A stretch of 64,000 nucleotides of DNA from Rhodococcus jostii RHA1. Lineage in GTDB: Bacteria > Actinomycetota > Actinomycetes > Mycobacteriales > Mycobacteriaceae. The DNA lies in NCBI RefSeq assembly GCF_000014565.1, contig NC_008268.1:6576501-6640500 (forward strand). Reading direction: 5' to 3'. The notes under the pieces were generated by a model that was given only the letters and a program-made list of their open reading frames with translations, had not been told where the DNA came from and searched no databases. Made by a program: the position numbers and the translations under genes. Positions 12,001 to 51,487 of the stretch are shown here, piece after piece (the stretch's first letter is position 1; every line of letters starts with the position of its first letter).

Positions 12001-15000
12001 CGCACCAGGTGATCCTCCCCGCCGACCAGGTCCGGCTGGACCTGACGCCCGCTGCGGTGTCGGATGACGAACTGCGCGAGCAGTTGGTGGAGATGGTCAC
12101 CGCCGGATTCGACGTCACCGCCGACGTTCCGCCGATCCGGACGCGACTGTTCGAGGTCGGCCCGCAGGACTACGTGCTGGCACTCGTCGTGCACCACGTG
12201 TCCACCGACGGTGAGTCCACGGCGCCGTTCGTGCGCGACGTCATGGTGGCGTATGCGTCGCGGGCGGCAGGCCGGGAACCTGGCTTCGCACCGCTCCCGG
12301 TGCAGTACGCGGATTACGCGATCTGGCAGCGTGAACTCCTCGGCAGCGAGGACGACCCCGACAGCCTGATCGCCGCCCAGCTGGCCTTCTGGAAGAAGAC
12401 GCTCGCCGGCGTGCCCGATCTCCTCGAGCTGCCGGTGGACCGGCCGCGACCGCCCGTGCAGTCCCTGCGCGGGTCGCGGATCGACTTCACCATCGACGCC
12501 GAGGTGCACCGCGGTCTGGCAGCCCTGGCCCGCAGGCACAACGCCAGCGTGTTCATGGCCGTGCACGCCGCGTTCGCGGTGCTGCTCAGCCGGTTGTCCG
12601 GCACCGAGGACATCTCGGTGGGCACCCCGATCGCAGGCCGCGGCGAGCGCGAACTCGACGACGTCGTCGGCATGTTCGTCAACACCCTTGCGCTGCGGGT
12701 GCAGGTCGACGGGCAGCAGACGTTCGACGAGATCCTCGATCGTGCCCGGGAGGCCGACCTCGAGGCGTTCTCGCACGCCGACGTCCCGTTCGAGCGCCTG
12801 GTCGAGGTCCTGAACCCGGCACGCTCGATGGCCCACCACCCGATCTTCCAGGTGGGCTACTCGTTCCAGAACACGACGAAGGCCGAGCTGGAACTGCCCG
12901 ACCTCACCGTCACACCGCTCGAGGTCGAGGGCGACACCGCGCAGTTCGACCTCCATCTGATCCTGGGCGACAGCCCCGAGGGTGAGCAGATGTCGGGCGT
13001 GTTCACGTTCGCGACCGACCTGTTCGACGCCGCCACCGTCAAGCGTTTCGCGGACATGTTCCGCCGCGTCCTGGCCGCCGCGGTGGACTCTCCGCGGACC
13101 GCGGTCGGTGACCTGCCGCTCGCAGGCAGCGACGAGCGTGCGCTCGTGGTGTCCGGATGGAACGACACGGAGCGGGCCCTGCCGGAGACGACGCTCGCGG
13201 ACATGTTCGCGTCCGCCGCCGCGGAGAACCCCGACGTCACCGCTCTCGTGTTCGAGGGCGAGTCGCTGACGTACGCCGACTTCTCGGCGAGGGTCAACCG
13301 GTTGGCCCGGCACCTCGTCGGCCGCGGGGTCGGCCCGGAAACCGTGGTCGGCCTCGCGATTCCGCGTTCGGTGGAACTGCTGGTCGGCATGTACGCGATC
13401 GCCGCGGCCGGCGGTGCGTACCTGCCGATCGACCCGGACCATCCGGCCGAGCGCACCGCGTACGTGCTGGAGAGCGCACAACCCGTCTGCGTCCTGGCGA
13501 CCCGCGCCGTCGTCGGGGGACTGCCGGGCGAGGTCGACTACCTCCTCCTCGACGAACTGGATCTGGGCGGAATCGACCCGTCCCCGCTCACCGACGCGGA
13601 GCGGATCACGCCGCTGCGGCCGGAGAACGCCGCGTACGTGATCTACACGTCCGGCTCGACCGGCCGCCCGAAGGGTGTGGCGATCGCGCACCGTGCGATC
13701 GCGAACCAGTTGCGGTGGAAGCAGTCGGAATACCCGCTCACCGCCGAAGACTCGGTGTTGCTCAAGACGGCGGCGACGTTCGACCTGTCGGTGTGGGAGT
13801 TCTGGTGGGCGCTGACCGCGGGCGCACGTCTGGTCGTCGCCACACCGGACGGCCACCGCGACCCGTCGTACCTGGCCGCACTCGTTGCGGAGCAGCAGGT
13901 CTCGACGGTCCACTTCGTGCCTTCGCTGCTGTCGGCGTTCGTCGCGGTTGCGGAACCTGCCCAGCTGGTGTCGTTGACACGTGTGCTCTGCATTGGTGAG
14001 GCACTGCCCGCCGACACGATGCTCCGCTTCCGCGACGTCTCCGACGCGGAGATCTTCAACCTGTACGGCCCCACCGAGGCCGCCGTCAGCGTCACCCACT
14101 ACCGGTGCGGCGACGAGCGCGACGGTTCGGTCCCGATCGGCAGGCCCGAATGGAACACGCAGACGTACGTTCTCGATGCGCGTCTGCACCCGGTTCCCGC
14201 CGGCGTCACTGGTGAGCTCTATCTCGCGGGCGAGCAGTTGGCGCGCGGTTACTTCGGCCGCCACGACCTCACCGCGGAACGGTTCGTCGCCAACCCGTTC
14301 GGCGACGCCGGACACCGGATGTACCGCACCGGTGACCTGGTGCGATGGAACCGCGACGGCAACCTCGACTACGTCGGCCGGAGCGACTTCCAGGTCAAGG
14401 TCCGCGGTTTCCGGATCGAACTCGGCGAGATCGAGCGGGCACTCGTGGCGCACCCGTCGGTGGCGCAGGCCGTCGTCGTCGTCCACCACGACCGTCACAC
14501 CGGGGACCGGCTCGTCGGCTACGTGGTGCCGGAGCAGGGCGTCTCCGTCGACGACGCCGACGTTCTCACGTTCGCCGGCCGGTCGGTGCCGGGATACATG
14601 GTGCCGTCCGCGCTGATCGCCCTCGACGTGCTGCCGCTGAACATCAACGGCAAGCTCGATCGCAAGGCGCTCCCCGAACCCGAGTTCGGTGGCGCCGTGG
14701 ACCATTACAAGGCTCCGCGTACGCCCGTCGAGGAGATCGTCGCGGGAGTCTTCGCGGACGTGCTCGGTCACGAGCGGGTCAGCGTGGACACGAGCTTCTT
14801 CGACCTCGGCGGCAACTCACTGGTCGCGACGCGCGTGGTCGCCCGCGTCAACGCCGCGCTCGACACGTCGATCGGTGTGCGCGAACTGTTCGAGGCTCCG
14901 ACGGTGATCGCGCTGTCGGCTCGCGCCGAGCAGTCCGATTCGGCGGGCGCGAACCGCCCGGCCCTGGTGCCGCAGCCGCGTCCGGCCCGGATTCCGCTGT

Positions 15001-18000
15001 CCCCGGCGCAGTCCCGCATGTGGTTCATCAACCAGTTCGACACGGCGTCGGCGGCGTACAACATTCCGCTGGCGATCAGGCTGACGGGCCACCTCGACGT
15101 CTCGGCGCTCGAACAGGCACTCGGCGACGTCGTCGAACGGCACGAGACGCTGCGCACGACGTACCCCGACACCGGAGACGGTCCGGGCCAGGTCGTGCTG
15201 TCGCGGACCCGGAGTTTCACCTCACTGGACGTGGAGAACGTCGCAGACGAGAACGCCCTGCGTGAGCGCGTGATCTCCCTCGTCACCGCCGGTTTCGACG
15301 TCGCGAAGACCGTCCCGGTCCGCGCGCGTCTCCTGCGGATCGACGCCGAGCAGCACGTGCTGGTCATCGTGGTCCACCACATCTCCTCCGACGGTGCCTC
15401 GACGGCACCGCTGGCGCGCGACGTGGTGATCGCCTACAGCGCACGCGCGGCCGGTTCCGAACCTGCCTGGGCTCCGCTCGACGTCCAGTACGCGGACTTC
15501 TCGCTCTGGCAGCACGAGTTGCTCGGCGACGAGAACGCGTCGGATTCGCTGGCCACCAAGCAGATCGACTACTGGCGGACCACGCTCAGCGGTCTGCCGG
15601 ACGTGCTGCCGTTGCCGACGGACCGGCCGCGGCCGCCCGCGCAGTCGATGCGCGGCGCGAACTTCGACTTCGAGATCGACGCGGAACTGCGCGACCGGCT
15701 CGGGGCGCTGGCGCGTGAGCACAACGCGTCGCTGTTCATGGTCGCGCACGCGGCACTGTCGGTGCTGCTCGCTCGGCTGAGCGCCACGGACGACATCGCG
15801 GTGGGGACCGCGATCGAGGGCCGCGGCGAGGCCGCGCTCGACGACCTCGTGGGCATGTTCGTCAACACGCTGGTGTTGCGCGCGCAGGTCGACGTCGACA
15901 AGACGTTCGCCGACCTCCTCGCGCAGGTGCGTCAGCACGACCTCGGTGCGTTCACGCACACCGACGTGCCGTTCGAGCGGCTGGTCGAGATCCTCCAGCC
16001 GGAACGCTCCACGGCGTTCTCGCCGCTCTTCCAGGTGGCCCTCGCTTTCCAGAACATCGAGCAGGCGCACCTGGAGCTGCCCGGTCTGACGGTCGAGGGA
16101 CTCGACGGTGGGATCAGCGCCGCGAAGTTCGATCTGCAGCTCACGCTCGCGGACGCAGCCGGCACGGACGGGGACGCGCCCATGCGGGGCGTCTTCACCT
16201 ACGCGACGGATCTGTTCGACGAACGCACGATCGCGTCGTTCGCGTTCCGTTTCCAGCGCATCCTCGAGGCGATCACTACCGACGCCTCCGTGCTGATCGG
16301 GGACATCGACGTCCTGAGCGAGAACGAGCACGCGGTGCTGGCACCCGTGCGCGGCGCCGACAGCGCCGCACCCGAGCTCCTGTCGAGCATCCTGGCCACC
16401 GCCGCCGCGGTGGACCCCGATGCCGTCGCCGTCGTGTGCGGCGACGAACAGGTCACCTACCGCGAGCTCGACGAGCGCTCGAACCGTCTCGCCCGCGTCA
16501 TGATCGGCAGGGGCATCGGGGCCGACGACTTCGTCGCACTGGCGCTGACGCGTTCCGTCGAATCCATCCTCTCCATCTGGGCGGTCGCGAAGACCGGCGC
16601 CGCATTCGTGCCCGTCGATCCGAGCTACCCGTTCGAGCGGATCCTGCACATGGTCACGGACTCCCGCGTGGAGGTCGGTCTCACCACCGGCGCCCACGTC
16701 GGCGAGCTGCCGGACACCGTGCGCTGGCTGGTGCTCGGTGAGGACGAGATGGACGGCGACTGCGCGTCCGTGTCGTCCGAGGCCGTCACCGACGCCGACC
16801 GCATCCGTCCGACACGGGTCGACGATGCGGCGTACGTCATCTACACGTCGGGGTCGACGGGTCTGCCCAAGGGCGTCGTCGTCACCCACACCGGGCTGGC
16901 GAACGTCACGACCGAGCAGGTCGAGCGACTCCGCCTCACTCCGCAGTCGCGGGTGCTGCACTTCGCCTCGCCGAGCTTCGACGCGTCCGTGTTCGAACTG
17001 CTGCACGCCGTGGCCGCCGCGTCGACGATGGTCATCGCGTCCGGCGTGGTCTACGGCGGCGACGAACTCGCCCGGTTGCTGAAGAAGCAGAAGGTCACGC
17101 ACGCGTTCATCACGCCCGCGGCTCTGACCACGGTCGACCCGGCCGGGTTGGACGGCATCGAGGTGCTGTCGGTGGCCGGTGAGGCCTGCCCGCCGGAACT
17201 CATGCAGAAGTGGGCGCCGGGCCGGCGCATGTTCAACCTCTACGGCCCGTCCGAGGCGACGATCTGGAGCACGTCGAGCAACCCGATGAAGGCGGATCAG
17301 CCCGTCACCATCGGTGGTCCCACCCGGGGCGTCGACGTGGTCGTGCTCGACTCGCGGCTCACGCCCGTCCCGGTGGGGGTCGCGGGTGAGCTGTACGTGG
17401 CGGGTCCGAGCGTGGCACGCGGCTATCACAACCGGTTCGCCCTGACGGCGGAGCGATTCGTCGCCAACCCGTTCGGCGGTCCCGGTGAGCGGCTCTACCG
17501 CACCGGCGACGTTGTCCGCTGGGTGCACGACGGGGAGACCGGCGACCTCGTCCTCGACTACGTCGGCCGGTCGGACTTCCAGGTGAAGGTCCGCGGGTTC
17601 CGCATCGAGCTCGGTGAGATCGACGCCGAACTCGGCAGCCACCCGAGCGTGGACTTCGCGGTCACGCTGGGCCACCACCGCGAGTTGACCGGTCAGACCG
17701 TGCTGGTGTCGTACGTGATGCCCGCTGCCGGCGCGTCGATCGACGTCGCGGAACTGTCGGCGTTCGTGTCCGAGACCCTGCCCGGGTACATGGTGCCGTC
17801 GTCGATCATGGCGATCGACTCGGTGCCGCTGACGCCCGCCGGAAAGCTCGACCGGAAGGCGCTTCCCGAACCTCAGTTCGTGTCGGCCGCCAGTGAGTAC
17901 TGCGCGCCGTCGACGCCGATGGAGAAGGCCATCGCCGACGTCTTCGCGCAGGTGCTCGGTGTCGACCGCGTCAGCGTCGACGACTCGTTCTTCGCCCTCG

Positions 18001-21000
18001 GCGGCGACAGCATCGTGTCCATCCAGCTGACGACCCGCGCGAAGAACGCCGGGGTGCTGTTCACGGCTCGGGACGTCTTCGAGCGCAAGACCGTCTCGGC
18101 GCTGGCCGACGTGGCCGCCTGGGCCACCGACGTCGAGTCGGTGAAGCTCGAGGAGCTGCCGGGCGGCGGCGTCGGATCGATTCCGCTCACGCCCATCGCG
18201 CACTGGCTGGTGGAGACGGCAGGGACCTTCGAGAAGTTCTCGCAGGCGGTTCTGCTGACCACCCCGCCCGCGGTCACGCGGGATCAGTTGGTGGCCACGG
18301 TGGATGCTGTCCTGGAACGCCACGACATTCTCCGATCCCGGCTCACCCGGGCCGGGGACGACTGGGCGTTCGAGGCTCTCTCCACCGAAGAAGCGTTCGG
18401 TGCGGACGACCTGATCGAGCGGATCGAGTTCACCGACAAGCCGGGAACGGACGGATTCGAGAGGCTGGCACGCGCGGCTCTCGACCGCGCGGCGGAGCGG
18501 CTGGATCCGGCGTCGGGCCGGATGACGCAGTTCGTGTGGTTCGCTCCCGCGGCGTCGTTGCCGGGGCAGAGCGGCCGCCTGCTGGTGCTCGCGCATCACC
18601 TCGTCGTCGACGGTGTGTCCTGGCGAGTGCTGTTGCCGGACTTCGCGACCGCGGGTTCGCAGGTCACGGCGGGACAGCCGGCGCAGCTCGAACCGGTCGG
18701 CTCGTCGGTCCGTGCGTGGGCGCACGGTCTCGTCGAGGAGGCGAAGTCGCCGCACCGCGTGGCGGAACTCGACTTCTGGCGCGGGATGCTCGCGGGCACG
18801 GACCCGCTGATCGGAAAGCGTGCATTCGATCCCGCACGCGACGTGATCGCCCGGACCGACCGCCTGAGCATGACGTTCTCGACGCAGGTGACGCAGGCGC
18901 TGCTCACCACGATCCCGCAGTCCGTGAACGGCGGTGTCAACGACGGCCTGCTCGCGGCTCTCGCTCTCGCGGTCGCGCGCTGGCGTGGACTCCGCAACGG
19001 GACCGAGGATCGCTCGGTGCTGATCAACCTCGAGGGACACGGCAGGGAAGAGGCGACCGTGCCCGGTGCCGACCTCTCCCGCACGGTGGGCTGGTTCACG
19101 AGCCTGTACCCGGTGCGGCTGGACGTCTCCCGGGCCGATCTCGACGACGCGTTCGACGGCGGGACGTCGACAGGCGCGGCGCTGAAGGCTGTCAAGGAAC
19201 AGTTGCTTGCCGTGCCCGACAAGGGCATCGGCTACGGGCTGCTTCGCTACCTGAACGAGGAGACCGCTGCGGCTCTGGCATCGTTGCCGACTCCGCAGAT
19301 CGGGTTCAACTACCTCGGTCGCGCGGGCTCGGTGGATCTGCCCGCCGAGATCCGGGATCTCGGCTGGATCCCCGACAGCGATTCGGGTGAGTTCGGCGGT
19401 GCCATGGACGACGACATGGTGGCACCCGCGGTACTCAGCATCAACGCGGTGACGTCGGAGACGGCGTCCGGTCCCCAGATCGAAGCCAAGATCGCGTTCG
19501 CCACCGAGATTCTCGACGAGGCGGACGTGTGGGAGCTCGCCGAACTGTGGCACGCCGCGGCGACCGCGCTGGCCGAGCACGCCTCCGGACCGAACGGCGG
19601 CGGTCTCACGCCGTCCGACGTTCCGCTGGTGTCCGTGACGCAGGACGACCTCGAGGCGCTCGAGCGGCGCTACCCCGACGCAACCGACGTGTGGCCGCTC
19701 GCCCCTCTGCAGTCCGGAATGTTCTTCCATTCCGTTCTCGCCGAGGACGCGGTCGACGTCTACACCGCTCAGGTGGTGCTGGACTTCCAGGGCATCGTCG
19801 ACACCGGCCGGCTCCGCGGCGCGGCGGAGGCGTTGATCGCACGGCACGCGAACCTGCGCACGGCGTTCGTCCCCGACGATTCGGGAACCGCGGTCCAGGT
19901 GGTCGTCGACCGCGTCGCACTGCCGTGGGAAGAGCTCGACCTCTCCGGTCTGTCCGGGGCCGAACGCGAGGAGCGGATGAGTTCCGTTCTGAGCGAGCAT
20001 CGTTCGGCGCGGTTCGACATGAGTCGTCCGCCCCTGATGCGGTTCCTGCTGATCCGCACGGGCGAGAACAGCTACCGGTTCTCCATCAGCAACCACCACA
20101 TCCTGCTCGACGGATGGTCGATGCCGTTGCTGATGAAGGACCTGCTGGTGCTGTACGCCACCCGCGGAGACGGTTCGGTGCTGCCGCGCGTGCGTGGCTA
20201 CCGAGACTTCCTCGGCTGGCTGTCCGAACGCGACACCGACGCATCGCGCAGCGCGTGGGCGCACGCACTGGCGGGACTGGACGGTCCAACCGTGCTGGCC
20301 CCGGCGCCGAGCAGCGAGGACCGACCCGAGCCGGCCGAGTTCGCGCTGCACCTCGGTGAGGTGGTGAGCGAGAACCTGGCGCGCATCGCCCGGGACCGCG
20401 GCCTGACGATGAACACGATCGTCCAGGCGGCGTGGGGTCTGCTGCTGGCCCGCATGACGGCCTCGGACGACGTCGTCTTCGGCGCCACCGTGTCGGGTCG
20501 TCCCCCGGAGGTCGCAGGCATCGAGTCGATGGTGGGCCTGTTCATCAACACCATCCCGATCCGCGTGCGTATCGATCCCCGTGAGTCGCTCCTCGGACTA
20601 CTCGAGCGGCTGCAGGCGGAACAGTCGACGCTGTTCGACCACCATCACATCGGTCTTCCGGAGATCCAGCAGATCGCCGGAATCGGTGGGCTGTTCGACA
20701 CGTTGACGGTGTTCGAGTCGTACCCGGTGGACCGCGCAGGGCTCACCGAGGACAGCGACATCGACGGTCTCCGGGTCGCCGGGGTGCAGATCAGCGACGC
20801 CTCGCACTACCCGCTGAGCCTGCTGGCCCAGTCGGACAGCGAGCTGCAACTGGTCCTGAAGTACCTCCCGGACGTGTTCGGCGCCGACACCGTCGAGCGG
20901 CTCGGGTCCCGGCTGAACCGGATCCTGCAGACCATCGCGGCAGGCAGTTCCACGCTGGTGGGCGATCTCGACCTGCTGACCGGCGACGAACGCGAACTCG

Positions 21001-24000
21001 TCCTGTCCGGGTGGAACGACTCGGGGCACGACGTCGCCGACGAATCCGTGGTGTCGATGTTCGGCGCCCAGGTCGCCCGCACGCCGGATCGAACGGCGGT
21101 GGTGGCGGACCACGTCCGGCTCACCTACGCGGAGTTCGACGCGCGGGTGAATCGTCTGGCGCGGCATCTGATGTCGATGGGTGTGGGGCCGGACTCGGTG
21201 GTGGGCATCGCGATGCGACGCTCGCTCGACATGGTGATCAGCCTCTACGCCGTCCACGCGGCGGGCGGTGCGTACGTGCCGATCGAGCCGGAGCACCCGG
21301 CGGACCGCACCTCGTACGTCGTGGACAGTGCCATGCCGACGTGTGTGCTGAGCCTGGCCGACGACATCGCGAATCTCGATGTGGACGTGCCGGTGTACCT
21401 GGTCGAGGACTTCGACCTGTCCGAGTACGCGGCCGGCCCGGTCGAGGATTCCGAGCGGCTCGCCGAGTTGCGCCCGGACAACCTGGCCTACGCGCTGTAC
21501 ACGTCGGGTTCGACGGGACGTCCGAAGGGCGTGGCGATTCCGCACGCGGCGCTGGCCAACCAGCTGGCGTGGATGCGGGACGTCTACGGCATCGGCGCGC
21601 AGGACGTGGTGCTGCAGAAGACACCGTTCACGTTCGACGCCTCGGTGTGGGAGCTGTTCCTGCCGTTGGTGGTCGGTGGCACTCTCGTGATCGCGTCGCC
21701 GGACGGTCACCGCGACCCCGAGTACATGGCAGCGACCGTGGGCACGGAAGCGGTGACGGTGATCCAGTTCGTCCCGTCCGTGCTGACCATGTTCCTCGAC
21801 GCCGCGACGGCCGACCGGAGTGGTTCGCTGCGCCTGGTCTTCGCGGGCGGTGAGCCGCTGCCGCAGTCGGCTGCCGAGCGGGTCGCCGGTCTCGGTTCCG
21901 CGGAATTGGTGAACCTGTACGGCCCGACCGAGGTGACCATCAACTCGACGGCCCACGTGGTGGAGCCGTCGGGAACGGCGACGATCGCGCCGATCGGTTC
22001 GCCGGCCTGGAACACGCGGGCCTACGTGCTCGACGCTCATCTGAACCCGGCGCCGATCGGTGTTCCCGGTGAGCTGTACCTCGACGGCGCGCAACTCGCT
22101 CGCGGATACGTCAACAGTTCCGCACTGAGTGCGGAACGGTTCGTCGCGAACCCGTTCGACGATTCGGGGGCGCGGATGTACCGCACCGGCGACCTCGTCC
22201 GGTGGAACGAGAACGGCGTCCTCGAGTTCGTGGGCCGCACCGACTTCCAGGTGAAGGTGCGCGGACTGCGTATCGAGCTCGGCGAGGTCGAGGAGGCGTT
22301 CGTCCGGTACCGCGACGTGGCGCAGGCGGCCGTGATCGTCCACAACAGCGAGGTGGGTGCGCGGCTCGTCGCCTACGTCGTGCCGAAGCCGGATGCCGCT
22401 CTCGACGCGGCGGCGCTGAACGGGTTCGTCGCGGAATCGCTGCCCGAGTACATGATTCCGGATTCCCTGATGGTTCTCGCCGAACTGCCGTTGGGTACCA
22501 GCGGCAAGCTCGACCGGCGCGCACTGCCGGTGCCGGACTTCGCGTCGGCGGCCGAGTTCCGGGCGCCGAGCACCGACACCGAGCGTGCACTCGCGACCGT
22601 GTTCGGTGAACTGCTCGGCCGGGAGAGCGTCGGAATCGACGACTCGTTCTTCGAGCTCGGCGGCGACAGCATCGTGTCGATCCAGTTGGTGGCGCGGGCA
22701 CGTTCGGCCGGTATCCACTTCACCGCGCGAGATGTGTTCGAGCGGCGCACCGTTGCCGAGCTGGCCGCGGTGGCCGACTCGGGCGAGTCCGCGGCGGCCG
22801 CATTGCAGGAGTACGAGAGTGGTGGCGTCGGAACGGTGCCGCTCACCCCAGTTGCCCGCAAGATGGTCGAGCGCGGCGGCGACTTCGACCGGTTCGTCAT
22901 GCCGCTGTTGCTCACCCTGCCCGCCGGGATCGAACGCGAGCAGGTGATCGCGACGATCGCCGCCGTGGTCGACAAGCACGACGTGCTGCGGTCGACCCTG
23001 GTCACGTCCGGCGTAGGGGACGCGCTCGAGATCGCACCCGCGGGCAGCGTCGACATCGACGCCACCGTGCAGCGGGTGGCGATCGCGGCCGGCGACGAGC
23101 CCGGTTCGCCGGAATTCGACGCGGTGGCGAGTGCGGCGTTCGACGCGGCGCTGGATCGCCTCGACCCGCGCACCGGGTCGATGCTCCAGTTCGTCTGGTT
23201 CGACCCCGCCGAGTCGGATCGGCGCGGACGGCTCCTCGTGGTGCCGCACCACCTCGTCATCGACTCCGTGTCGTGGCGGATCCTCGTGCCGGACTTCGCG
23301 ACCGCGGGCGCGCAGATCGCCGCCGGCACGTCGCCGTCACTCGAGCCGGTCGGAACGTCGCTGCGGCGCTGGACCGACGGTCTGCTCGAGGCGGCGGTCA
23401 AGCCGGAGCGGGTGGCCGAACTCGAGGTGTGGGAACACATGCTGACCGGCCCGGATCCGCTGCTCGGATCGCGTGAGCTGGACCTGGGAACCGATCTGGT
23501 GAGCACGCTGGAGCGGACCCGGGTGGATGTTCCGGCACCGGTCACCGAGGCATTGCTGGGTGGCACGCCGGGTTCGCTCGACGGTGAGATCGGCGACGTC
23601 CTCGCGGCAGCCCTCGCGTTGGCAGTGACCGCATGGCGGCGCGACCGCGGAGTCGAGGCTTCGTCGACGGTCGTCACCCTCGAGGGCCACGGACGTGAAG
23701 AGTCCACGGTGCCGGGTGCGGATCTGTCGCGGACGGTCGGCTGGTTCACCACGATGTACCCGGCACGTCTCGACCTCGCCGGGGTCGACATCGCCGATGC
23801 CCTGCGGGGTGGCGCGGGCGCGGCGGACGCCGTGCGCGCCGTACGGGATCAGCTGAGCGCGATCCCGGACCGGGGAATCGGGTACGGGCTGCTCCGGTAC
23901 CTGAACCCCGACACGTCGGCGGTCATGAGGAACTGGTCGGAACCGCAGATCGTGTTCAACTACATCGGACGCGTCAGCGCGGCCGAGGTTCCCGAGGCGG

Positions 24001-24254
24001 TACGCGGACTCGACTGGCTGCCCGATTTCGAATCCTCCATCTCAGGCGGATACGAGAACAGCGCGATGCCTGCCCAGGCCGTTCTCGATATCCAGTCGGT
24101 GGTTTCGGAAACCGCGGAGGGCCTGCAGTTGTCGGCGTTCATGTCGTTCCCGCCTGACATCATCTCGGCGCCGGAAGTGGATCGGTTCGGGGAGTTCTGG
24201 GTGGACGCGCTCACCGCGCTCGTGGCTCAGGCCGAGGAGCGATCCGGGCGCTGA
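1..24254 (+). CDS. Giant seven-module non-ribosomal peptide synthetase (5' end outside or at window edge)
   Basis: Assembles a peptide on carrier-bound thioesters in the cytoplasm. The order read from motifs is A1-T1, C2-A2-T2, C3-A3-T3, C4-A4-T4, C5-A5-T5, C6-A6-T6-E6, C7-A7-T7-E7. Residue numbers here and in the module entries count from the ATG at 21. That ATG has no clear ribosome binding site and the frame stays open to base 1, so the true start is probably upstream. Carrier motifs are LGGNS in T1-T5 and LGGDS in T6 and T7, the form usual before an epimerisation domain. Both E domains carry the EGHGRE and RTVGWFT motifs. The last C domain (HHILLDG, near residue 6692) is of the D-accepting class, which fits E6 before it. 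There is no thioesterase or reductase domain, so the chain must pass to another protein. No MbtH-like gene is in the window. Family certain; product unknown. Confidence 0.97.
21..1850 (+). other. NRPS module 1: A1-T1
   Basis: Adenylation domain (residues about 8-530) followed by a carrier domain with its phosphopantetheine serine at residue 563 (LGGNS). The A domain is atypical. The usual YTSGSTG core reads [12 protein letters not shown], and the substrate pocket segment reads FDQTQKNIW. My ten-residue specificity code is D-Q-K-N-V-G-T-A-T-K, which I cannot match to a known amino acid. The acidic residue for the alpha-amino group and the last lysine are present, so it should be active on an amino acid. 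It is either a loading module or the remainder of a module whose C domain lies upstream of the window. Confidence 0.85.
1860..5030 (+). other. NRPS module 2: C2-A2-T2
   Basis: Condensation domain of the L-accepting type ([15 protein letters not shown] near residue 620; HHIASDG at residue 748), adenylation domain from about residue 1080, and carrier LGGNS near residue 1625. The A2 specificity code read by eye is D-A-L-F-V-G-G-I-M-K. It looks hydrophobic but has no confident match. A2 belongs to the same subtype as A4 and A6, which share SPSFD-x-SV, VYGG and TP-x-AL segments. Confidence 0.85.
5035..8580 (+). other. NRPS module 3: C3-(A-domain remnant)-A3-T3, predicted threonine
   Basis: C3 has HHISADG near residue 1812. 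Between C3 and A3 lies an extra stretch of about 110 residues (see the remnant entry). A3 has the code D-F-W-S-I-G-M-V-H-K, one residue from the threonine code DFWNIGMVHK that I recall, with a matching [11 protein letters not shown] segment. T3 carries LGGNS near residue 2814. The DNA of A3-T3 (about 6850-8560) uses visibly more A/T-ending codons than its neighbours, suggesting this didomain came from elsewhere. Confidence 0.83.
6495..6790 (+). other. Truncated adenylation-domain start left between C3 and A3
   Basis: After the end of C3 the protein begins an A domain ([20 protein letters not shown], then [19 protein letters not shown]). It breaks off after about 60 residues into a segment resembling the tail of a C domain ([14 protein letters not shown]). 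A second, complete A domain then begins ([28 protein letters not shown]). The duplicated start is direct from the sequence. Reading it as a recombination scar is inference; it could instead be an extended linker that recurs in related synthetases. Confidence 0.6.
8590..11760 (+). other. NRPS module 4: C4-A4-T4
   Basis: L-accepting condensation domain (HHISADG near residue 3000), A4 from about residue 3332, and carrier LGGNS near residue 3864. The pocket segment is [10 protein letters not shown] and the code read by eye is D-T-G-V-V-G-A-V-I-K, which I cannot assign. The glycine at the third code position suggests an open pocket able to take a bulky side chain, so this is one candidate site for 4-aminophenylalanine or a derivative. 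That last point is speculation. Confidence 0.83.
11765..14940 (+). other. NRPS module 5: C5-A5-T5, serine-like code
   Basis: Condensation domain with HHVSTDG near residue 4058, A5 from about residue 4387, carrier LGGNS near residue 4924. The code read by eye is D-L-W-H-L-I-L-V-S-K. It shares the D-x-W-H core of the serine codes (such as DVWHFSLVDK of EntF), but differs at three or more positions, including loss of the last acidic residue. Serine or a small modified residue is possible; the assignment is weak. Confidence 0.8.
14945..19620 (+). other. NRPS module 6: C6-A6-T6-E6 (D-residue)
   Basis: C6 has HHISSDG near residue 5119. The A6 code read by eye is D-A-F-F-S-A-L-I-W-K, unassigned. 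T6 carries LGGDS near residue 5997. E6 (about 6052-6527) has [11 protein letters not shown] near residue 6192, [33 protein letters not shown] and FNYLGR, a full set of epimerase motifs. The sixth residue should therefore be presented as the D-isomer to C7, which is of the D-accepting class. Confidence 0.85.
19640..24254 (+). other. NRPS module 7: C7-A7-T7-E7 (D-residue, glutamine-like code)
   Basis: D-accepting condensation domain starting [15 protein letters not shown] with HHILLDG near residue 6692. A7 has the code D-A-W-Q-F-G-L-I-N-K, one residue from the glutamine code DAWQFGLIDK that I recall. T7 has LGGDS near residue 7550. The closing E7 has [12 protein letters not shown] and [11 protein letters not shown], but its active-site motif reads HHLVIDS instead of the usual HHxxxDG. 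Ending on an E domain implies handover to a partner synthetase not in this window. Confidence 0.85.
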
Positions 24255-24265
24255 TCTCCGCGGCC

Positions 24266-24298
24266 CGTGGTGGGGAGGCTCCGAGCCTTCCCACCACG
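24266..24298. terminator. Bidirectional terminator between NRPS and N-oxygenase
   Basis: Arms GTGGTGGGGAGGCT (24267-24280) and AGCCTTCCCACCAC (24284-24297) pair over 14 bp with one G-T wobble and a three-base loop, plus one further outer pair. It sits 12 bases after the NRPS stop and before the stop of the convergent gene, the expected place for a shared terminator. Confidence 0.8.
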
Positions 24299-24327
24299 TG
24301 GCCCCGTCTGTTTCCGTCGCCGTGGAG

Positions 24328-25287
24328 TCAGGCCCACTCGAAGGACATCTCGCCCGCGACGCCGAGGTGCTTGCACAGCTTGTGGATCCCACTGAAATCC
24401 TGGACCAGTGCGGATCGGCGGGTGTCGTGTTCGGCGTCGTCGATCATCGCCTGGCCGCCGTCCAGGTCCAGGATGTCGACGATGGTGTGCCACGTCGAGT
24501 AGTCGTTGCTGCTGAATGCCGTCATCGCGTCGACGAGCCCGTCCAGGAAGTGGCGGCGGTCGTGGGGGCTCAGCGTGTCGTAGACGACGCCCGCGATGTC
24601 GTCGGCGATCGAGGCGTGACAGTACTCGTCGCGGTTGTGGAGGCGGACCGTCGCCCGGTTGACCGGCTGGATGACGTCGTTCTCGGAGATCAGGTCGAGG
24701 TAGGAGCTGATCGAGATCTCCGCCACCGTCATGAAGGCGAACGTGGTGATCGCCCGCTTCCTCGGGTCGGCGGCATCGGCGGTCGCCGCGCGTTGACGGC
24801 GCAACGTCAGGACGTCGGGAAGGGCGTTGTTCGGCATGGCCCAACCGCGTTGCCTGCGCGTGACCGCGCTCGCGTTCAGGTGCATGAGGGTGTGGTACTG
24901 CTCGTCGACCATCGCCTGGTGGACGGCCACGGCGAACGTGTCGCCGAGCCCGGTGTCCAGGGCGTCGTGCGCGACGAGGTCGAACCCGGGATTGACCACG
25001 TACTGCTCGATGTCCATGACGTTCTTGTTGAAAGCGATCCAGGCCCACGCCCGGAGCTGGTTCCGTTGCTCCTCGCGCATGCCGAGGAACCGATCGTGAT
25101 CGGCGAAGGGCAGCAAGTCGTTCGGGTAGTCCTGCTTGTCGAGATCGAACAGCGCGTCGAGGTCCGGTTCCGGCTTCTTCACGGTCGCCCGCTGTCCCCA
25201 GTTCCGGGCGAGTCGGGACACGACGGCGCTCTCCACCGGATCAGACGGGTCGTACTCCGGGAGCGAAGGAGTCTTCTGGGGCGTCAT
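24328..25287 (-). CDS. AurF/CmlI-like diiron arylamine N-oxygenase
   Basis: Predicted to oxidise an aromatic amine to the hydroxylamine or nitro group with a non-heme diiron centre, as AurF does with p-aminobenzoate and CmlI with the chloramphenicol aryl amine. In the 319-residue protein all AurF ligand positions are found with matching spacing: E94, then DEQYH giving E129 and H132, then E190, H217, E221 and H224 (HNRDEYCH). The distance from E190 to H217 is the same as from E196 to H223 in AurF. The ATG at 25287 was chosen because it overlaps the papC stop as ATGA; an in-frame start further upstream would run far into papC. It is last in the papB-papA-papC operon, which supplies an aminophenyl compound, so free or carrier-bound 4-aminophenylalanine is the likely substrate. 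Family call strong; exact substrate inferred. Confidence 0.88.
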   Translation of the reverse strand: MTPQKTPSLPEYDPSDPVESAVVSRLARNWGQRATVKKPEPDLDALFDLDKQDYPNDLLPFADHDRFLGMREEQRNQLRAWAWIAFNKNVMDIEQYVVNPGFDLVAHDALDTGLGDTFAVAVHQAMVDEQYHTLMHLNASAVTRRQRGWAMPNNALPDVLTLRRQRAATADAADPRKRAITTFAFMTVAEISISSYLDLISENDVIQPVNRATVRLHNRDEYCHASIADDIAGVVYDTLSPHDRRHFLDGLVDAMTAFSSNDYSTWHTIVDILDLDGGQAMIDDAEHDTRRSALVQDFSGIHKLCKHLGVAGEMSFEWA

Positions 25288-26216
25288 GACGAATCTCCAT
25301 TCCTGTCCCACGACTGCGGCTGTCTGCGAACGAGATCGGTGAAGAGGTCGGCGCACAGCCGGGCGAGGGGTTCGCTCCGGCCGCCGAGCGTCGACGTCGA
25401 GCGGGACATGAGCGTGGCGAAATCATCCTCCGAGCCCTGCTCGACGGTTTCCGTGAGAGTGGTCAGCGCCGCGGCGAGCGCGCGGCGGGCCTCGCCCGCG
25501 AAGGGATTGCCCGCCTGGATGTCCCGGTAGACCTCCGGGACACCTCCGCCGACCCGCGCGAGGAGCGCGAGCGACACGAGGTGGGGAGGGGTTGCCACCG
25601 CGGTGAGTTCGGCGCCGTCGACACCGAGGTCCGCGAGCGCGAGGCCGAACGCGAGGACGCCGGCGTGGGTCAGTGCCTGGGTCGCTGCCGTGAGCCGGTC
25701 GTGGTGTTCGGCGTCCAGGCGGACCACCGACGACCCCCAGCCGGACAGCACCGACAGGAACCACTCGACCTCACCGCTGTCCCGGTAGGTCACCGCCGCG
25801 ACGGGGCGGCCGTCCGGCCCGAGGGAAGGCGCAAACATCGGGTTGATGCCCACCGCGCCGTTGCGCAACGCGCTGTCACGCAGGGCGGCGTCGAATCGGG
25901 ACTTCACGGACAGCGTGTCGACCAGCAGGGCGTGTTCGGGCAATTCCGCGACGACGAACGGAATCGCCTCCAGAGCGACGCTTTCGGGGATCGCGAGGAT
26001 TACCGCATCGGCGGCGTGCACCACCGCCCGCAGCTCCGGCGACGGGTCGGTGACGTCCCCCTTCACCTGATCCGGGTCGGACCGGTCGGTGAAGCGGATG
26101 TCGATGGTGCGCACCGTGTTTCCGTCAGCGCGCAGCCGAGCCGCCAGCATCCGGCCGACATCGCCGGAACCGCCGATCAGCGCGACGGTCCGGGTGGATG
26201 CGGCCGGGACGTTCAC
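25284..26216 (-). CDS. papC: 4-amino-4-deoxyprephenate dehydrogenase (PapC-like)
   Basis: NAD-dependent enzyme of the prephenate dehydrogenase family (310 residues). In this setting it should oxidatively decarboxylate 4-amino-4-deoxyprephenate to 4-aminophenylpyruvate, which a general aminotransferase converts to 4-aminophenylalanine. A Rossmann loop is visible at the N terminus (ALIGGSGDVGRMLAARL), followed by the family's GINPMFAPSLG segment. The GTG start at 26216 overlaps the papA stop as GTGA, so translation is probably coupled. The sequence alone cannot exclude a plain prephenate dehydrogenase; the papA and papB neighbours and the N-oxygenase decide the call. Confidence 0.85.
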   Translation of the reverse strand: MNVPAASTRTVALIGGSGDVGRMLAARLRADGNTVRTIDIRFTDRSDPDQVKGDVTDPSPELRAVVHAADAVILAIPESVALEAIPFVVAELPEHALLVDTLSVKSRFDAALRDSALRNGAVGINPMFAPSLGPDGRPVAAVTYRDSGEVEWFLSVLSGWGSSVVRLDAEHHDRLTAATQALTHAGVLAFGLALADLGVDGAELTAVATPPHLVSLALLARVGGGVPEVYRDIQAGNPFAGEARRALAAALTTLTETVEQGSEDDFATLMSRSTSTLGGRSEPLARLCADLFTDLVRRQPQSWDRNGDSS

Positions 26217-28285
26217 GGCCCGATCTCGTTCGGCCGGTCTGCCGTCACGGTCAGTGCCCGCAACATGGTGGCGGCCTTGACCATCGCCTCGTCGAACTCC
26301 TCCTCCGGGTCGGAGAGGGCGGTGATCGCGCCGCCGATGCCGAACGTCACCTCGGTTTCCGTGGCGACGATCGTGCGGATGACGATCGACAGGTCGGCCG
26401 TCCCCGTCAGTGAGAAGTAGCCGATCGACCCGGAATACACACCGCGAGGCCCGGACTCGAGCCGGTCGATGATCTCCATGGTCCGGATCTTCGGGGCGCC
26501 CGTCATCGATCCGCCCGGGAAGGCGGCGCGAACGCACTCGACGACGGAGGCGTCGGCGCTGAGCGTCCCGCGCACGGTCGACACGAGTTGATGCACGGCC
26601 GCGTACGTCTCGACGTCGAAGAGCTTGGGAACGTGCACCGATCCGGGAACGCACACCCGGGCCAGATCGTTGCGCGTCAGGTCGACGATCATCAGGTTCT
26701 CGGCGCGGTCCTTCTCGCTGTCGAGCAGGTCCTGCCGCAGTGCCGCGTCCTTGGCGGGGGTCGCGCCGCGCGGACGCGTCCCCTTGATGGGTTTGGACTC
26801 CACCACCCGGTCCGCGCCGATCCTGAGGAACCGTTCGGGGGAGGCGCTGAGAACCGACAGACCGGCGAACTGGAGGTACGCGCTGTACGGGGTGGGGCTG
26901 ATGGAGCGCAGCAACTCGAACGTGTGCAGGGGATCGATCGACTGGTCCACCGTCGCCATGTTGGTCAGGCACACCTCGTAGGACTCGCCGGTCCGGATCT
27001 CGCCGAGCGAGGTCCCGATGTGTTCGAGGTACTTGTCGTGATCGTGGCGCAGGGCGAGTTCGGCGGACTCCGGCTTCCGGATCGGCGACACCGCGGTCGG
27101 CGGGTTGTCCGGCTCGGCCAGCCGATGCAGCGCCACCTCCATCTCGTCGAGCCAGCGGCGCAACTCCGGATCGTCCTGGTGATCGCTCAGGCACAGCGCG
27201 TAGGTGCGCTCGCCGGAATGGTCGATGACGACAGCGCGGTCCGCGAACACCAGCGCGGCGTCCGGGGTGGGCGACTTGTGGGCCGCCGTGCCGCCGGTCT
27301 CGGCCTTCAGTTCGTAGCCGAGGTACCCCACGTAGCCGAGGCCGAACGGCACCCCCGGGAGGCCGGGCACCGACCGGGCCTGCAGTTGCCGCTCGAGGTA
27401 GTCGAAGAACGGTGCATGTACCTGTTCGACCGGCAACCCCTCGCGAGTGATCCGGACGATCGCTTCGCTGACGTCGTACGTGATGTATTCGGCGCGGGGG
27501 CCGGAACAATTGCCCATGATGGTGAACCGCGAATTCGGTTCCGATGCCGACGTCCCGTCCAGCCAGAACGCGTTGGGCCCGGACGCGAAGAGATCCTCGA
27601 ACGTGGTGCGGGGATCGACTTCGTGGTCGACGCGCACCTGCTGGACCACGTACGGCGCGTGGGGAATCGGGATTCTGAGCATGGAACCATGCGTGGATGT
27701 CCCGGAATGCGTCTGCGTGAGATCGCGGAAGTTCGCGAGCAGTTCGTGACCGAAGGCGGTGCTGATCGACTCGGGGTGGAACTGGACGCCCCACAGCGGA
27801 CGAGTGCGGTGACGGACACCCATCAGCAGGCCGTCGGCGGTCCAGGCGGTGGCCTCGAGGTCGTCGGGGAGATCCTCGACGATCAGCGAGTGGTAGCGGA
27901 CCGTCGGAAACGGTGACGGAATGCCCGCGAAGAGTTCGGAACCGTTGTGTTCGACGAGGGACACGCGGCCGTGCATCGGTTCGGGTGCGAGAACCACACT
28001 GCCACCGAACAGCTGACACAGCCCCTGATGGCCGAGGCACACGCCGAGGACGGGGAGTGCGGTCTCCGTGATGACGCGCGCACTGATGCCGAAGTCCCGT
28101 TGCCGCTCCGGGCGTCCGGGGCCGGGGGAGATGACGATGTTGTCGAACTCGGACCAGGGGATCGAATCCCACTCCACATCGTTGTGCACGACTGTGGGGG
28201 GTTCACCGTTCACCTCGGCCAGCAGGGTGAACAGGTTGTAGGTGAAGGAATCGTAATTGTCGACCAAGAGCGTCCGGGTACTCAT
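26213..28285 (-). CDS. papA: Aminodeoxychorismate synthase, PabA-PabB fusion (PapA-like)
   Basis: Converts chorismate and glutamine to 4-amino-4-deoxychorismate. Residues 1-190 form a class I glutamine amidotransferase with C83 in GVCLGHQG and the H170/E172 pair in FHPES. The rest (about 200-690) is a chorismate-binding PabB domain. The diagnostic segment reads PIKGTRPRG with K501. This lysine marks aminodeoxychorismate synthases, whereas anthranilate synthases have alanine there. The fused form is that of antibiotic pathways (pristinamycin PapA, chloramphenicol CmlB). The ATG at 28285 overlaps the papB stop as TGATG; a GTG at 28288 is an equally possible start one codon earlier. It supplies the first step for the pap operon and could also feed folate. 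Confidence 0.93.
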   Translation of the reverse strand: MSTRTLLVDNYDSFTYNLFTLLAEVNGEPPTVVHNDVEWDSIPWSEFDNIVISPGPGRPERQRDFGISARVITETALPVLGVCLGHQGLCQLFGGSVVLAPEPMHGRVSLVEHNGSELFAGIPSPFPTVRYHSLIVEDLPDDLEATAWTADGLLMGVRHRTRPLWGVQFHPESISTAFGHELLANFRDLTQTHSGTSTHGSMLRIPIPHAPYVVQQVRVDHEVDPRTTFEDLFASGPNAFWLDGTSASEPNSRFTIMGNCSGPRAEYITYDVSEAIVRITREGLPVEQVHAPFFDYLERQLQARSVPGLPGVPFGLGYVGYLGYELKAETGGTAAHKSPTPDAALVFADRAVVIDHSGERTYALCLSDHQDDPELRRWLDEMEVALHRLAEPDNPPTAVSPIRKPESAELALRHDHDKYLEHIGTSLGEIRTGESYEVCLTNMATVDQSIDPLHTFELLRSISPTPYSAYLQFAGLSVLSASPERFLRIGADRVVESKPIKGTRPRGATPAKDAALRQDLLDSEKDRAENLMIVDLTRNDLARVCVPGSVHVPKLFDVETYAAVHQLVSTVRGTLSADASVVECVRAAFPGGSMTGAPKIRTMEIIDRLESGPRGVYSGSIGYFSLTGTADLSIVIRTIVATETEVTFGIGGAITALSDPEEEFDEAMVKAATMLRALTVTADRPNEIGP

Positions 28286-28722
28286 CACGACTCGACATTC
28301 GCAGAGGGCACGGAACTGTGACGAACGTGGTGGTTGTCATGGTGGTCGTGGCGTCCGTTGTGGTGAGGGCCCTCATCGGCGGGCTCCGCGTTGATCACGA
28401 GGTCCTCGAGCCTGCAGGTCTCGGCGATGAGAAGGTCGTAAAGCGAGTCGAAGAACTCCGGGGACAGTGAGTGGCTGTCCGCGTACTGTCGCGCCCGTTC
28501 GCGGACGATGTGGATCCGGCCGGGCTGCATCATGGCGATGTGCTCGCGTCGCTTCAGTTCGCCGATGCGCAGGCACACCTCCAAGCGCTGCCGGACCGCG
28601 TCGAGAAGGGTCGCGTCGACTGCGTCGAGTTCGGCGCGCAGACCGTCGAGTGCCTGCTGCGCCGAGGCGTCAGAATGCTCTCCGGAATCGTCGCCGTTCC
28701 GCTGTTCTACGGAGAAATACAT
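28285..28722 (-). CDS. papB: 4-amino-4-deoxychorismate mutase (PapB-like) with His-rich tail
   Basis: AroQ-type chorismate mutase domain (about residues 23-110 of 145). Visible are the first-helix LRAELDAVDATLLDAVRQR, the GELKRREH turn with the expected lysine, and the MQPGRIHIVRERAR segment typical of PapB-like mutases. It should rearrange 4-amino-4-deoxychorismate to the aminodeoxyprephenate. The ATG at 28722 was chosen because a GGGG stretch lies just upstream; a GTG at 28737 has no such site. It is the first gene of papB-papA-papC-N-oxygenase. The C terminus carries an unusual run rich in histidine (HHNGRHDHHDNHHVRH) outside the catalytic fold, perhaps binding metal. Confidence 0.87.
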   Translation of the reverse strand: MYFSVEQRNGDDSGEHSDASAQQALDGLRAELDAVDATLLDAVRQRLEVCLRIGELKRREHIAMMQPGRIHIVRERARQYADSHSLSPEFFDSLYDLLIAETCRLEDLVINAEPADEGPHHNGRHDHHDNHHVRHSSVPSANVES

Positions 28723-28875
28723 AATCGCCCCACTCACTCGATTGGCAGTAGCTTTCTCATCCCGACTATCGTGTGTCGTTGGTGGTTCGTTTCGGCGAGC
28801 CTTCCGGATGGCCGGGAGGACTGTCTGTGATCAGCCGAAGACGAATCGTGTGGGTTATCACCCCCAGAGTCTCGA

Positions 28876-28952: not shown

Positions 28953-29888
28953 ATGCGTATATCGTCGGCCGGTAAGGCCCTGTTGTTCGCGCTGGCAGGC
29001 ATCGTGATGCTCTGCGGTGTGGCACCAGCGGCAGCGGATCCCGTGGAAGCGGAACCCGCACCCGCGGCCGACCCGTCGGTACTGCCGGGGGCGAACGACT
29101 GGAGCTGTAAGCTGTCCGCGGCGCACCCGCGTCCCGTCGTACTGGTGCACGGCACCTGGACCGGCATGGTGGGAACGTGGAAGGACCTCGCCCCGGCGCT
29201 CACGGCGGAGGGGTACTGCGTCTTCGCCCTCAACTACGGACAGGCTGCCGGTCTGACCGAGGGCAACCTGATGCGCATGTTCGGCGGCGCCGACATCGCG
29301 GAGTCCGCGCGGCAGCTCGCCGGATTCGTCGACCAGGTCCGTACCACCACCGGCGCTTCGCAGGTCGACATGATCGGGCATTCGCTCGGTGGCACGGTGT
29401 CCCGCCAGTACCTGCGGTTCGACGGCGGCGCCGACCCAACGAACCCCGCGCTGAACAAGGTGCACTCGCTCGTCACGCTCGGTGCCACCAACCACGGCAC
29501 CAGCTTCGGGGACGTCCAGGCGCTCGGTGCAATCGCTCAGGCACTGGGCGTGCCGGTCACGACGCTCGCCGGTGTCGCGGTCGGGCCGTCCTACATCCAG
29601 CAGATGGTGGGCTCGCCCTTCCTCCAACTCCTCAACGCGGGCGGCGACACCGACCCGGGCATCGAGTACACGGTGGTCGCCAGCCGCAGGGATACTGTGT
29701 CGACCCCGCCGGAGAACACGTTCCTGGCGGCTGGTCCGGGGGCCGTCGTGCACAACATCTGGCTCCAGGACGGCTGCGAGACGAACACGGCCGAACACGG
29801 CCAGCTGACCACCGATGCGCGGGCCGTGTACATCATCCAGCGGGCGCTGGACCCCACCTACGGAGATCGCAACCCCGCACCGTGCTGA
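28953..29888 (+). CDS. Secreted triacylglycerol lipase/esterase (lipase class 2 family)
   Basis: A 311-residue protein with an N-terminal signal peptide: basic MRISSAGK, a hydrophobic stretch to about residue 23, and an AAAD cleavage region near residue 28. The mature part has an alpha/beta-hydrolase fold. PVVLVHGTW forms the oxyanion region, GHSLGG near residue 143 holds the nucleophilic serine, and a histidine-containing C-terminal segment follows. It should hydrolyse ester lipids outside the membrane. A GAGGA site lies just before the ATG. It is monocistronic, between papB and a convergent regulator. It is probably linked to the lipid genes on its right rather than to the NRPS, but that is inference. 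Confidence 0.88.
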   Translation: MRISSAGKALLFALAGIVMLCGVAPAAADPVEAEPAPAADPSVLPGANDWSCKLSAAHPRPVVLVHGTWTGMVGTWKDLAPALTAEGYCVFALNYGQAAGLTEGNLMRMFGGADIAESARQLAGFVDQVRTTTGASQVDMIGHSLGGTVSRQYLRFDGGADPTNPALNKVHSLVTLGATNHGTSFGDVQALGAIAQALGVPVTTLAGVAVGPSYIQQMVGSPFLQLLNAGGDTDPGIEYTVVASRRDTVSTPPENTFLAAGPGAVVHNIWLQDGCETNTAEHGQLTTDARAVYIIQRALDPTYGDRNPAPC

Positions 29889-51079: not shown

Positions 51080-51109
51080 GTCCGTGCACGAGCCGAGGAG
51101 CGAACATCG

Positions 51110-51487
51110 ATGAGCAAACCGACGGGTGTAGGGGCGGACGGTGTCGACACGGCCGGCCGTATCAGGAGACTCACCCAGGCCGCACTCAATGCCGACGTCA
51201 CCATCGGCCGCGTCGACGGGGTGGCCCACGAGATCGGGACGTCCCTCGACGAATTCGCCCGCGTGCTGGGCAGGTTCGACGCGTTGCTGGACAAGTTCGC
51301 CGACGGGCTCGACACGTTCGCAGGCACGGTTCGGTCGGTGGACGGAGTCGTCGGATCGCTGACGGCCCCCGAACAGGACCTCGACGAGCTGCTGCTGCGC
51401 GTCGGCCGGATCGTCGAGACGGTCGACTGGCTGCTGACCCCCGCGACGGCGGTGCGTCACCGGTTGGCCGGGATCAGATTCTTCTGA
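51110..51487 (+). CDS. Unknown small protein at the end of the mce operon
   Basis: A 125-residue protein I do not recognise. It has no signal peptide or membrane span. Its middle (DEFARVLGRFDALLDKFADGLDTFAGTVRSVDG) is a regular amphipathic helix resembling the helical tails of Mce proteins, and the end is basic and aromatic. GAGGAG lies before the ATG and the gene starts 30 bp after mceF, so it is probably co-transcribed. It is unlike the usual mce-associated membrane proteins. A role in the Mce complex is inferred from position only. Confidence 0.7.
   Translation: MSKPTGVGADGVDTAGRIRRLTQAALNADVTIGRVDGVAHEIGTSLDEFARVLGRFDALLDKFADGLDTFAGTVRSVDGVVGSLTAPEQDLDELLLRVGRIVETVDWLLTPATAVRHRLAGIRFF

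Follow-up and report, generated by a model that had tools for sequence, protein, structure and literature searches.

We analysed a 64,000-nucleotide stretch of the Rhodococcus jostii RHA1 genome (the window; C1:6576501-6640500, in a genome of 9,702,737 bases with a chromosome of 7,804,765 bases), in which four minus-strand genes form a papB-papA-papC-aurF operon next to a giant gene for a nonribosomal peptide synthetase (NRPS). The first gene of the operon encodes a papB-like chorismate mutase (28285..28737; PF01817, 60 bits; TIGR01803, 82.7 bits with a cut-off of 73.35). It is followed by genes for a papA-like fused glutamine amidotransferase/aminodeoxychorismate synthase (26213..28288; PF00117 and PF00425; TIGR00553 (pabB), 363.4 bits with a cut-off of 328.4), a papC-like prephenate dehydrogenase homolog of 310 amino acids (aa) (25284..26216; PF02153 and PF20463), and an AurF/CmlI-type diiron arylamine N-oxygenase of 319 aa counted from ATG (24328..25287; PF11583, 168.7 bits with a cut-off of 29.6). 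We found that the genes overlap at TGATG (papB/papA), GTGA (papA/papC) and ATGA (papC/aurF), and they are translationally coupled in one tight operon. The initial annotation, made from the window alone, had described four overlapping genes here, and their placement and overlaps agree with ours.

The start codon of papA is either the ATG at 28285 or the GTG at 28288. Its product carries the PIKGT lysine that the initial annotation had named as diagnostic, K501 counted from the ATG or K502 from the GTG, and its amidotransferase part carries GVCLGHQ and FHPES. In the N-oxygenase, residues E94, E129, H132, E190, H217, E221 and H224 are invariant in 90/90 aligned sequences. We take these residues to be the seven metal ligands of AurF/CmlI (three His, four Glu), so the earlier claim that every AurF ligand is present at matching spacing holds for all 7/7. 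Among PDB structures, the best match of the N-oxygenase was 5hyg (260 bits), which is presumably the CmlI structure. AurF of the aureothin pathway acts on 4-aminobenzoate and is not known to have chorismate mutase or prephenate dehydrogenase partners; it belongs to the same family and shares all seven ligands, but matched at a lower score (3chh, 157 bits). Since the RHA1 enzyme reached 176.1 bits where the NCBI model for 4-aminobenzoate N-oxygenase (NF045603) has a cut-off of 620 bits, it is not AurF sensu stricto. Arylamine oxidation is the predicted activity of this AurF/CmlI-type enzyme. The roles of PapB and PapC were assigned from family and operon context, and their preference for amino substrates is putative. 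Family scores, catalytic residues and translational coupling rule out that these four genes are a product of chance or mis-annotation.

The pathway steps proposed here follow the established pathways of these enzyme families, and the obafluorin and dnacin pathways have a papABC-type supply of the 4-aminophenyl unit. PapA would convert chorismate to 4-amino-4-deoxychorismate, PapB would convert this to 4-amino-4-deoxyprephenate, and PapC would yield 4-aminophenylpyruvate by decarboxylation and oxidation. An aminotransferase encoded outside the operon would then give 4-aminophenylalanine. The AurF/CmlI-type enzyme may oxidise the arylamine through the hydroxylamine and nitroso stages to the nitro group, on either the free or the carrier-bound amino acid. 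The route from chorismate to 4-aminophenylpyruvate with arylamine N-oxygenation, as the initial annotation had predicted it, is well supported as a prediction by the family and residue evidence. We infer from sequence each of these reactions, transamination included, as well as the oxidation state that the product reaches and the use of the amino acid by the seven-module NRPS described below.

The adjacent NRPS gene lies on the plus strand and is convergent with aurF, 73 base pairs apart. The gene is cut by the window edge, and the seven modules counted in the initial annotation are in fact nine. Modules 3 to 9 are in the window (1..24254), and the whole frame of 11,290 aa extends 9.6 kb upstream, to a TTG start at window coordinate -9618 that is preceded by GGAG. 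The protein has a condensation domain at its very start and epimerisation-type (E-type) domains after modules 1, 8 and 9. No thioesterase (TE) motif was found in it, and its last domain is of the epimerisation type. The adenylation (A) domain codes are DVWSLALVH, DALFVGGIM, DQKNVGTAT, DALFVGGIM and DFWSIGMVH for A1 to A5, and DTGVVGAVI, DLWHLILVS, DAFFSALIW and DAWQFGLIN for A6 to A9. Among these we take the Thr-, Ser- and Gln-like codes, and no others, to be nameable. An attempt to deduce an aryl substrate from the codes of this NRPS was rejected; CmlP-like codes match no module. Between the NRPS gene and aurF lies a hairpin (24267..24297), a possible shared two-way terminator with a fold energy of -47.5 kcal/mol over 24250-24330 (z -5.15), although a simple terminator scan requiring a T run found nothing in this gap. 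The convergent arrangement and the strong hairpin suggest that the NRPS gene and aurF are separate transcription units.

Several other features of this NRPS were observed. Ahead of A5 lies a degenerate stretch that looks like the beginning of an A domain (window 6492-6791; NRPS residues 5371-5470). All 19 orthologs measured have A4 and A5 about 1170-1190 aa apart, where a spacing of about 1060 aa would be usual, and no other module varies as much in its code between close relatives, as might be expected of a swap site at A5. With a length of about 11.3 thousand amino acids (kaa), the nine-module NRPS occurs in seven genera of the family (g1, which is Rhodococcus, and g6, g10, g11, g14, g17 and g19). 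This distribution suggests an old and widely kept assembly line, for which we found no named product.

We examined the distribution of both elements in a family sample of 301 genomes and a Rhodococcus sample of 28 genomes that includes RHA1. A genome was scored AurF-positive at E <= 1e-60 and PapA-positive at E <= 1e-150. In the 301-genome searches, scoring covered the 3-7 top first-look candidates of each genome (3-4 for the two NRPS queries), and some genes recorded as absent may therefore have been missed. Co-occurrence was tabulated by hand. Because the genomes are related, the counts are not independent, and the p values should not be read literally. All totals include the genomes G019 (75% complete, no AurF) and G214 (79% complete), and G016 (74% complete), whose AurF is in two pieces, counts as positive. 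AurF was found in 95/301 and PapA in 112/301 family genomes. A relative of AurF is present in 27/28 Rhodococcus genomes, RHA1 included, the exception being a genome that is 75% complete.

Orthologs of the nine-module NRPS, sought with module 6 as the query, were found in 37/301 genomes at 63-100% identity. Their frames are about 11.2-11.8 kaa except in G027 (8,270 aa, NRPS split in two) and G169 (8,862 aa), which were kept among the 37 carriers. AurF is present in 18/37 carriers vs 77/264 other genomes (odds ratio 2.3, Fisher p 0.02, relatedness uncorrected). The remaining 19/37 carriers, from four other genera, have no AurF at E <= 0.001 and no PapA at E <= 1e-150; as a positive control for the AurF search, the same query matched 27/28 and 95/301 genomes. 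A pairing in which pap genes accompany the nine-module NRPS wherever it is kept with the same codes was thus not found, as 19/37 carriers lack AurF.

Five pap-less orthologs were examined (G108, G050, G073, G044, G148), and all have nine modules. The three E positions are the same as in RHA1 in 4/5 of them; the pattern used did not pick up the last E motif of G050. The codes of modules 2, 4 and 6-9 differ from those of RHA1 at no more than 3/9 positions, with A6 identical in 4/5 and A4 in 3/5 orthologs. Three of the five share the A1 code of RHA1, from which G050 and G148 deviate at four positions. Differences amount to 1-6 positions in A3 and 5-6 in A5 among the pap-less orthologs, and to 1-4 in A3 and 1-7 in A5 among the pap-linked ones. 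Each of the nine modules has, in one or more pap-less orthologs, a code shared with a pap-bearing genome (A3 via G205/G157, A8 via G039). The codes of the five pap-less orthologs therefore indicate that most modules of the nine-module NRPS are retained whether pap is present or not.

The dissociation also runs in the other direction. The nine-module NRPS is missing from 77/95 AurF-bearing family genomes. In G006, G014 and G025 the operon is present with no giant NRPS in the 40 kb around it, and scoring up to 79 candidates in these genomes found no ortholog of the last NRPS module; the best matches reached 44, 45 and 51% identity, where paralogous modules within RHA1 itself reach 53%. No internal stops interrupt the pap genes in G006 or G014, both without the nine-module NRPS. 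The ratio of nonsynonymous to synonymous substitution rates between these two genomes is 0.07 for PapA, 0.10 for AurF, 0.20 for PapC and 0.23 for PapB, so purifying selection maintains the pap genes even in genomes that lack the nine-module NRPS. In G205, which has both, the nine-module NRPS is about 1.17 Mb from pap.

These observations bear on the central claim of the initial annotation, that the operon feeds the adjacent NRPS in a pathway to a nitro- or aminophenyl peptide. The claim is not supported, because pap without this NRPS and this NRPS without pap are both found. Conservation of pap in relatives lacking the NRPS, which the annotation itself had named in advance as evidence against the link, is seen in G006, G014 and G025 and in 77/95 AurF genomes overall. 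We consider it unlikely that the nine-module NRPS takes 4-amino- or 4-nitrophenylalanine into an aryl-nitro or aryl-amino nonapeptide, possibly a lipopeptide, even though pap-aurF lies near it in 13/13 Rhodococcus carriers, in two different layouts: convergent in RHA1-type genomes and on the opposite side in G013. About 17 kb separate aurF from the end of the NRPS in G039. The A6 code DTGVVGAVI indicates a wide, Gly-lined pocket that could fit a para-substituted ring. However, A6 is among the codes that persist in the pap-less carriers.

Gene maps of 35 further pap/aurF loci revealed a recurrent adjacency to a different, TE-ended NRPS. The last two codes of this pap-adjacent NRPS are DGFF-G--M and DAFFAAGIQ in genera g10 and g22, and DALF-GGIM and DAYFAGGIQ in g6. 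The pap-linked gene of G205 encodes 8,985 aa with the architecture X-Ser-X(E)-X-Thr(E)-X-X-TE. RHA1 has an ortholog of this seven-module NRPS (71%) at C1:144.5-171.3 kb, about 6.4 Mb from pap. Its codes, DALFVGAVV, DVWHFSLVD, DALFAGAVV and DALFVGGIM for modules 1-4, and DFWNIGMVH, DGFFVGAVM and DAFFAAGIQ for modules 5-7, followed by TE, are close to those of the pap-linked gene in G205.

Orthologs of the seven-module NRPS were sought in the 301 genomes with the last module plus TE as the query. A carrier was defined by a match above 1100 bits, a line set after inspecting the matches, which were listed down to about 980 bits. AurF is present in 69/71 carriers vs 26/230 other genomes (odds ratio 271, Fisher p 2e-43, relatedness uncorrected). 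In 42/71 carriers the seven-module gene is no more than 20 kb away from papA or aurF; these comprise 13/13 in g10 (Prescottella-like), 6/6 in g22 and 23/23 in g6 (fascians-like), where it is about 0.8 kb from papA. In the examined loci that show both, the seven-module NRPS and the pap genes are convergent. G006, G014 and G025, which have pap-aurF and lack the nine-module NRPS, all carry the seven-module NRPS.

The operon is best read as a conserved, lineage-wide operon of Rhodococcus and related genera for 4-amino/4-nitrophenylalanine. As for its main user, we put at a little under even the chance that this is the distant seven-module TE-ended NRPS, supplied in trans, with papB-papA-papC-aurF acting as a building-block operon. 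The seven-module NRPS (X-Ser-D-X-X-D-Thr-X-X) would then incorporate the amino acid from a distance in RHA1 and next to its source in g10, g22 and g6.

Several observations weigh against the seven-module NRPS as the main user. The seven-module gene is near pap in 0/25 Rhodococcus carriers, where it lies at least 0.68 Mb away on the same contig (12 genomes) or on another contig (13 genomes), and the proximity of pap to the nine-module NRPS in all Rhodococcus carriers of the latter also speaks against it. G013, G039, G104 and G119 have AurF and the nine-module NRPS and no seven-module match above 1100 bits; for that reason the adjacent nine-module NRPS may be the user in these four genomes. Four g9 genomes have pap-aurF and neither NRPS, and the incomplete AurF-positive genome G214 has neither NRPS either. 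In 9/16 AurF-positive g27 genomes a lower-scoring relative of the seven-module gene ends about 22 kb from pap, G020 being alike, and in the other 7/16 the relative is on another contig or not among the matches listed. Two of the 71 carriers (G093 and G058) have no AurF; in G058 papA, papB and papC are present and AurF was not matched at E <= 1e-60. The gap between aurF and the seven-module gene in G205 and G157 is 15-17 kb and holds unrelated genes. Finally, no A-domain code was readable as 4-amino- or 4-nitrophenylalanine, with CmlP-like codes as the sole reference; the four CmlP-like domains read DASMECAVC, DATMQAAVC or DATMQCAVC, unlike any module.

The g9 genomes with neither NRPS could be accounted for if the operon supplies p-nitrophenyl units for small amides of the corynecin (chloramphenicol-like) kind and no long peptide uses it. 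Corynecins, which are p-nitrophenyl amides, are described from Rhodococcus sp. H-CA8f, and the corynecin cluster is scored at 100% in five R. erythropolis genomes (PMC10819586). Other reports give a corynecin NRPS cluster spanning 108 kb in one R. erythropolis genome (PMC13163003) and cluster scores of 40% in Prescottella sp. R16 (PMC10972888) and 53% in Rhodococcus sp. ACT016. The operon is found in erythropolis-type genomes. Ten of these, whose AurF is 58-62% identical, have one AurF match each at E <= 0.001, and in four that were examined the sole match sits in this operon. With one close AurF relative per genome, the operon is the closest candidate for the nitro group in erythropolis-type genomes.

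Nevertheless, we regard the corynecin explanation as improbable. A CmlA-type beta-hydroxylase, expected for the corynecin/chloramphenicol kind of cluster, had no match in 6/8 genomes searched (RHA1 and five others), with weak partial matches in the other 2. A chloramphenicol-type cluster in RHA1 was accordingly rejected; the initial annotation had already noted no CmlA-like hydroxylase in the window. The maps of the 35 pap/aurF loci held no CmlP-like best-hit name, a result from gene maps, as no reductase-domain or genome-wide search was made. RHA1 also has four more distant AurF-family genes beyond two close ones, and because such genes exist the operon is not proven to be the sole source of nitro groups.

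The chloramphenicol loci themselves (S. omiyaensis L118, and L115-L117) offer a direct comparison. They share an AurF/CmlI-family N-oxygenase (43-45% identical) and hold PapA, PapB and PapC homologs in the same locus, like RHA1. However, their genes are spread over the cluster, whereas those of RHA1 form one tight operon. We assume from their presumed roles that these loci also hold a CmlA-type gene and a single NRPS-like gene. In an AurF tree of 48 rows, the 15 pap-linked copies of Rhodococcus form one clade (support 96/92), sister to the copies of Prescottella-type, g16, g22, g27 and g9 genomes (together 100/99). The chloramphenicol-cluster copies form a clade apart from the pap-linked ones, which also argues against a corynecin-like role. 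A recent foreign island was rejected as an origin of the operon, as the AurF tree groups by genus and the G+C content is ordinary.

Another possibility is a shared pool, in which the amino acid made by the operon serves several NRPSs per cell, and neighbours change because selection acts on the building block alone. At least four types of giant NRPS occur near pap-aurF: the nine-module type of RHA1, a multi-gene type with TE in erythropolis-type genomes, a TE-ended type beside papC-aurF in fascians-type genomes, and the seven-module type of g10/g22. The erythropolis-type loci G001, G003, G011 and G015 and the fascians-type loci have these other NRPS neighbours, TE-ended where the end was examined. 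All AurF-positive genomes of g1, g6, g10, g16 and g22 except G020 and G214 carry the seven-module and/or the nine-module NRPS. On the other hand, most nine-module codes are unchanged when pap is absent. We consider a shared pool rather doubtful, less probable than either a corynecin-like product or use by the adjacent NRPS.

The genes around the operon point to the history of the locus. Beside papB, on the plus strand, lies a gene for a Lipase_2-type alpha/beta hydrolase with a signal-peptide-like start (28953..29888; PF01674, 59.8 bits). In 5/5 pap-less genomes examined, an ortholog of it (55-58% identical) lies no more than about 3 kb from where the NRPS ends. Further along, on the minus strand, are genes for a DrrA-type ABC exporter: the ATPase (53164..54132; TIGR01188, 379.6 bits with a cut-off of 312.45), permease 1 of the ABC-2 type (52352..53167; PF12698, 49.9 bits), and permease 2 of the ABC-2 type (51507..52346; PF01061, 51.9 bits). 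A DrrA-type ATPase gene is near pap-aurF in G003, G011, G015, G018 and L044, and adjoins the NRPS in the pap-less genome G073. G018 has the DrrA-type ATPase gene followed by two transporter-size genes, the lipase gene, pap, aurF and the NRPS gene. The exporter genes of RHA1 (51507-54132) are about 21 kb from the lipase gene, and an mce/MlaE-type import operon (42989-51487) lies between them. This mce/MlaE-type operon apparently split an older cluster that is contiguous in G018.

Additional copies of single components were observed. Fascians-type genomes have papA at a locus of its own, and 7/7 searched have papA (63-66%). RHA1 has a second AurF-family gene at C1:3144506-3145444 (L009 14483-15493; 50% identical), which falls near the chloramphenicol clade in the tree. 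Next to it are a TauD-type dioxygenase, an enolase-like/GNAT stretch, an ATP-grasp-like gene and a gene that by eye resembles an aminotransferase. A second fused PapA of RHA1 (C1:7176866-7178926, 66% identical) lies beside a 5.6-kaa TE-ended NRPS with the codes DAFVLAGVM, DAFVLAGVM, DAPSYGQVS and DAPAYGQVS; the 40 kb examined around it held no gene named as aurF, papB or papC, and this NRPS was set aside as a candidate user. Second PapA copies also occur in G007, G026, G027, G004, G016 and G005 (among the matches listed). In the Streptomyces loci L069, L072, L080, L087 and L088, a fused PapA comes immediately after an AurF relative (51-57%). By eye, L072 contains in addition beta-ketoacyl-synthase-like and carrier-protein-like genes, which suggests a different aminoaryl-starter pathway there.

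To return to the seven-module NRPS as the main user of pap-aurF, its architecture resembles that of the humimycin-type NRPSs (IupU and relatives). These have seven modules with Ser at position 2, E domains after modules 3 and 5, Thr at position 5 and a terminal TE, as do the G205 gene and its RHA1 ortholog. Since codes 1, 3, 4, 6 and 7 were not matched to IupU itself, the seven-module NRPS is an architectural relative. Two reports give the humimycin pattern Tyr-Ser-dTyr-Phe-dThr-Val-Val (PMC12024397) and describe humimycins as synthesised from predicted sequences (PMC5550956). A literature search of titles and abstract openings, with most subscription papers outside its reach, found no account of the operon with a rhodococcal nitro- or aminophenylalanine peptide product.

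We tentatively propose, as a possibility that we hold to be well below even, that the products of the widespread humimycin-type heptamodular NRPSs in Rhodococcus, Prescottella and relatives carry 4-aminophenylalanine or an N-oxidised form of it (4-nitro or 4-hydroxylamino) in place of at least one of the predicted Tyr/Phe residues, with the supplying operon next door or megabases away. If so, synthetic humimycins, which were built from prediction alone, would differ from the true natural lipopeptides. The gene neighbourhood alone pointed to the wrong assembly line, or at best to one of several. An aryl-nitro or aryl-amine group in the seven-module product would provide a chemical handle (15N from glutamine, UV, mass) for lipopeptides that have not been seen, and this handle would cover a large lipopeptide family that includes relatives of the humimycin antibiotics. 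In that case the operon, whose AurF has a relative in nearly every Rhodococcus genome sampled, would gain a function as well.

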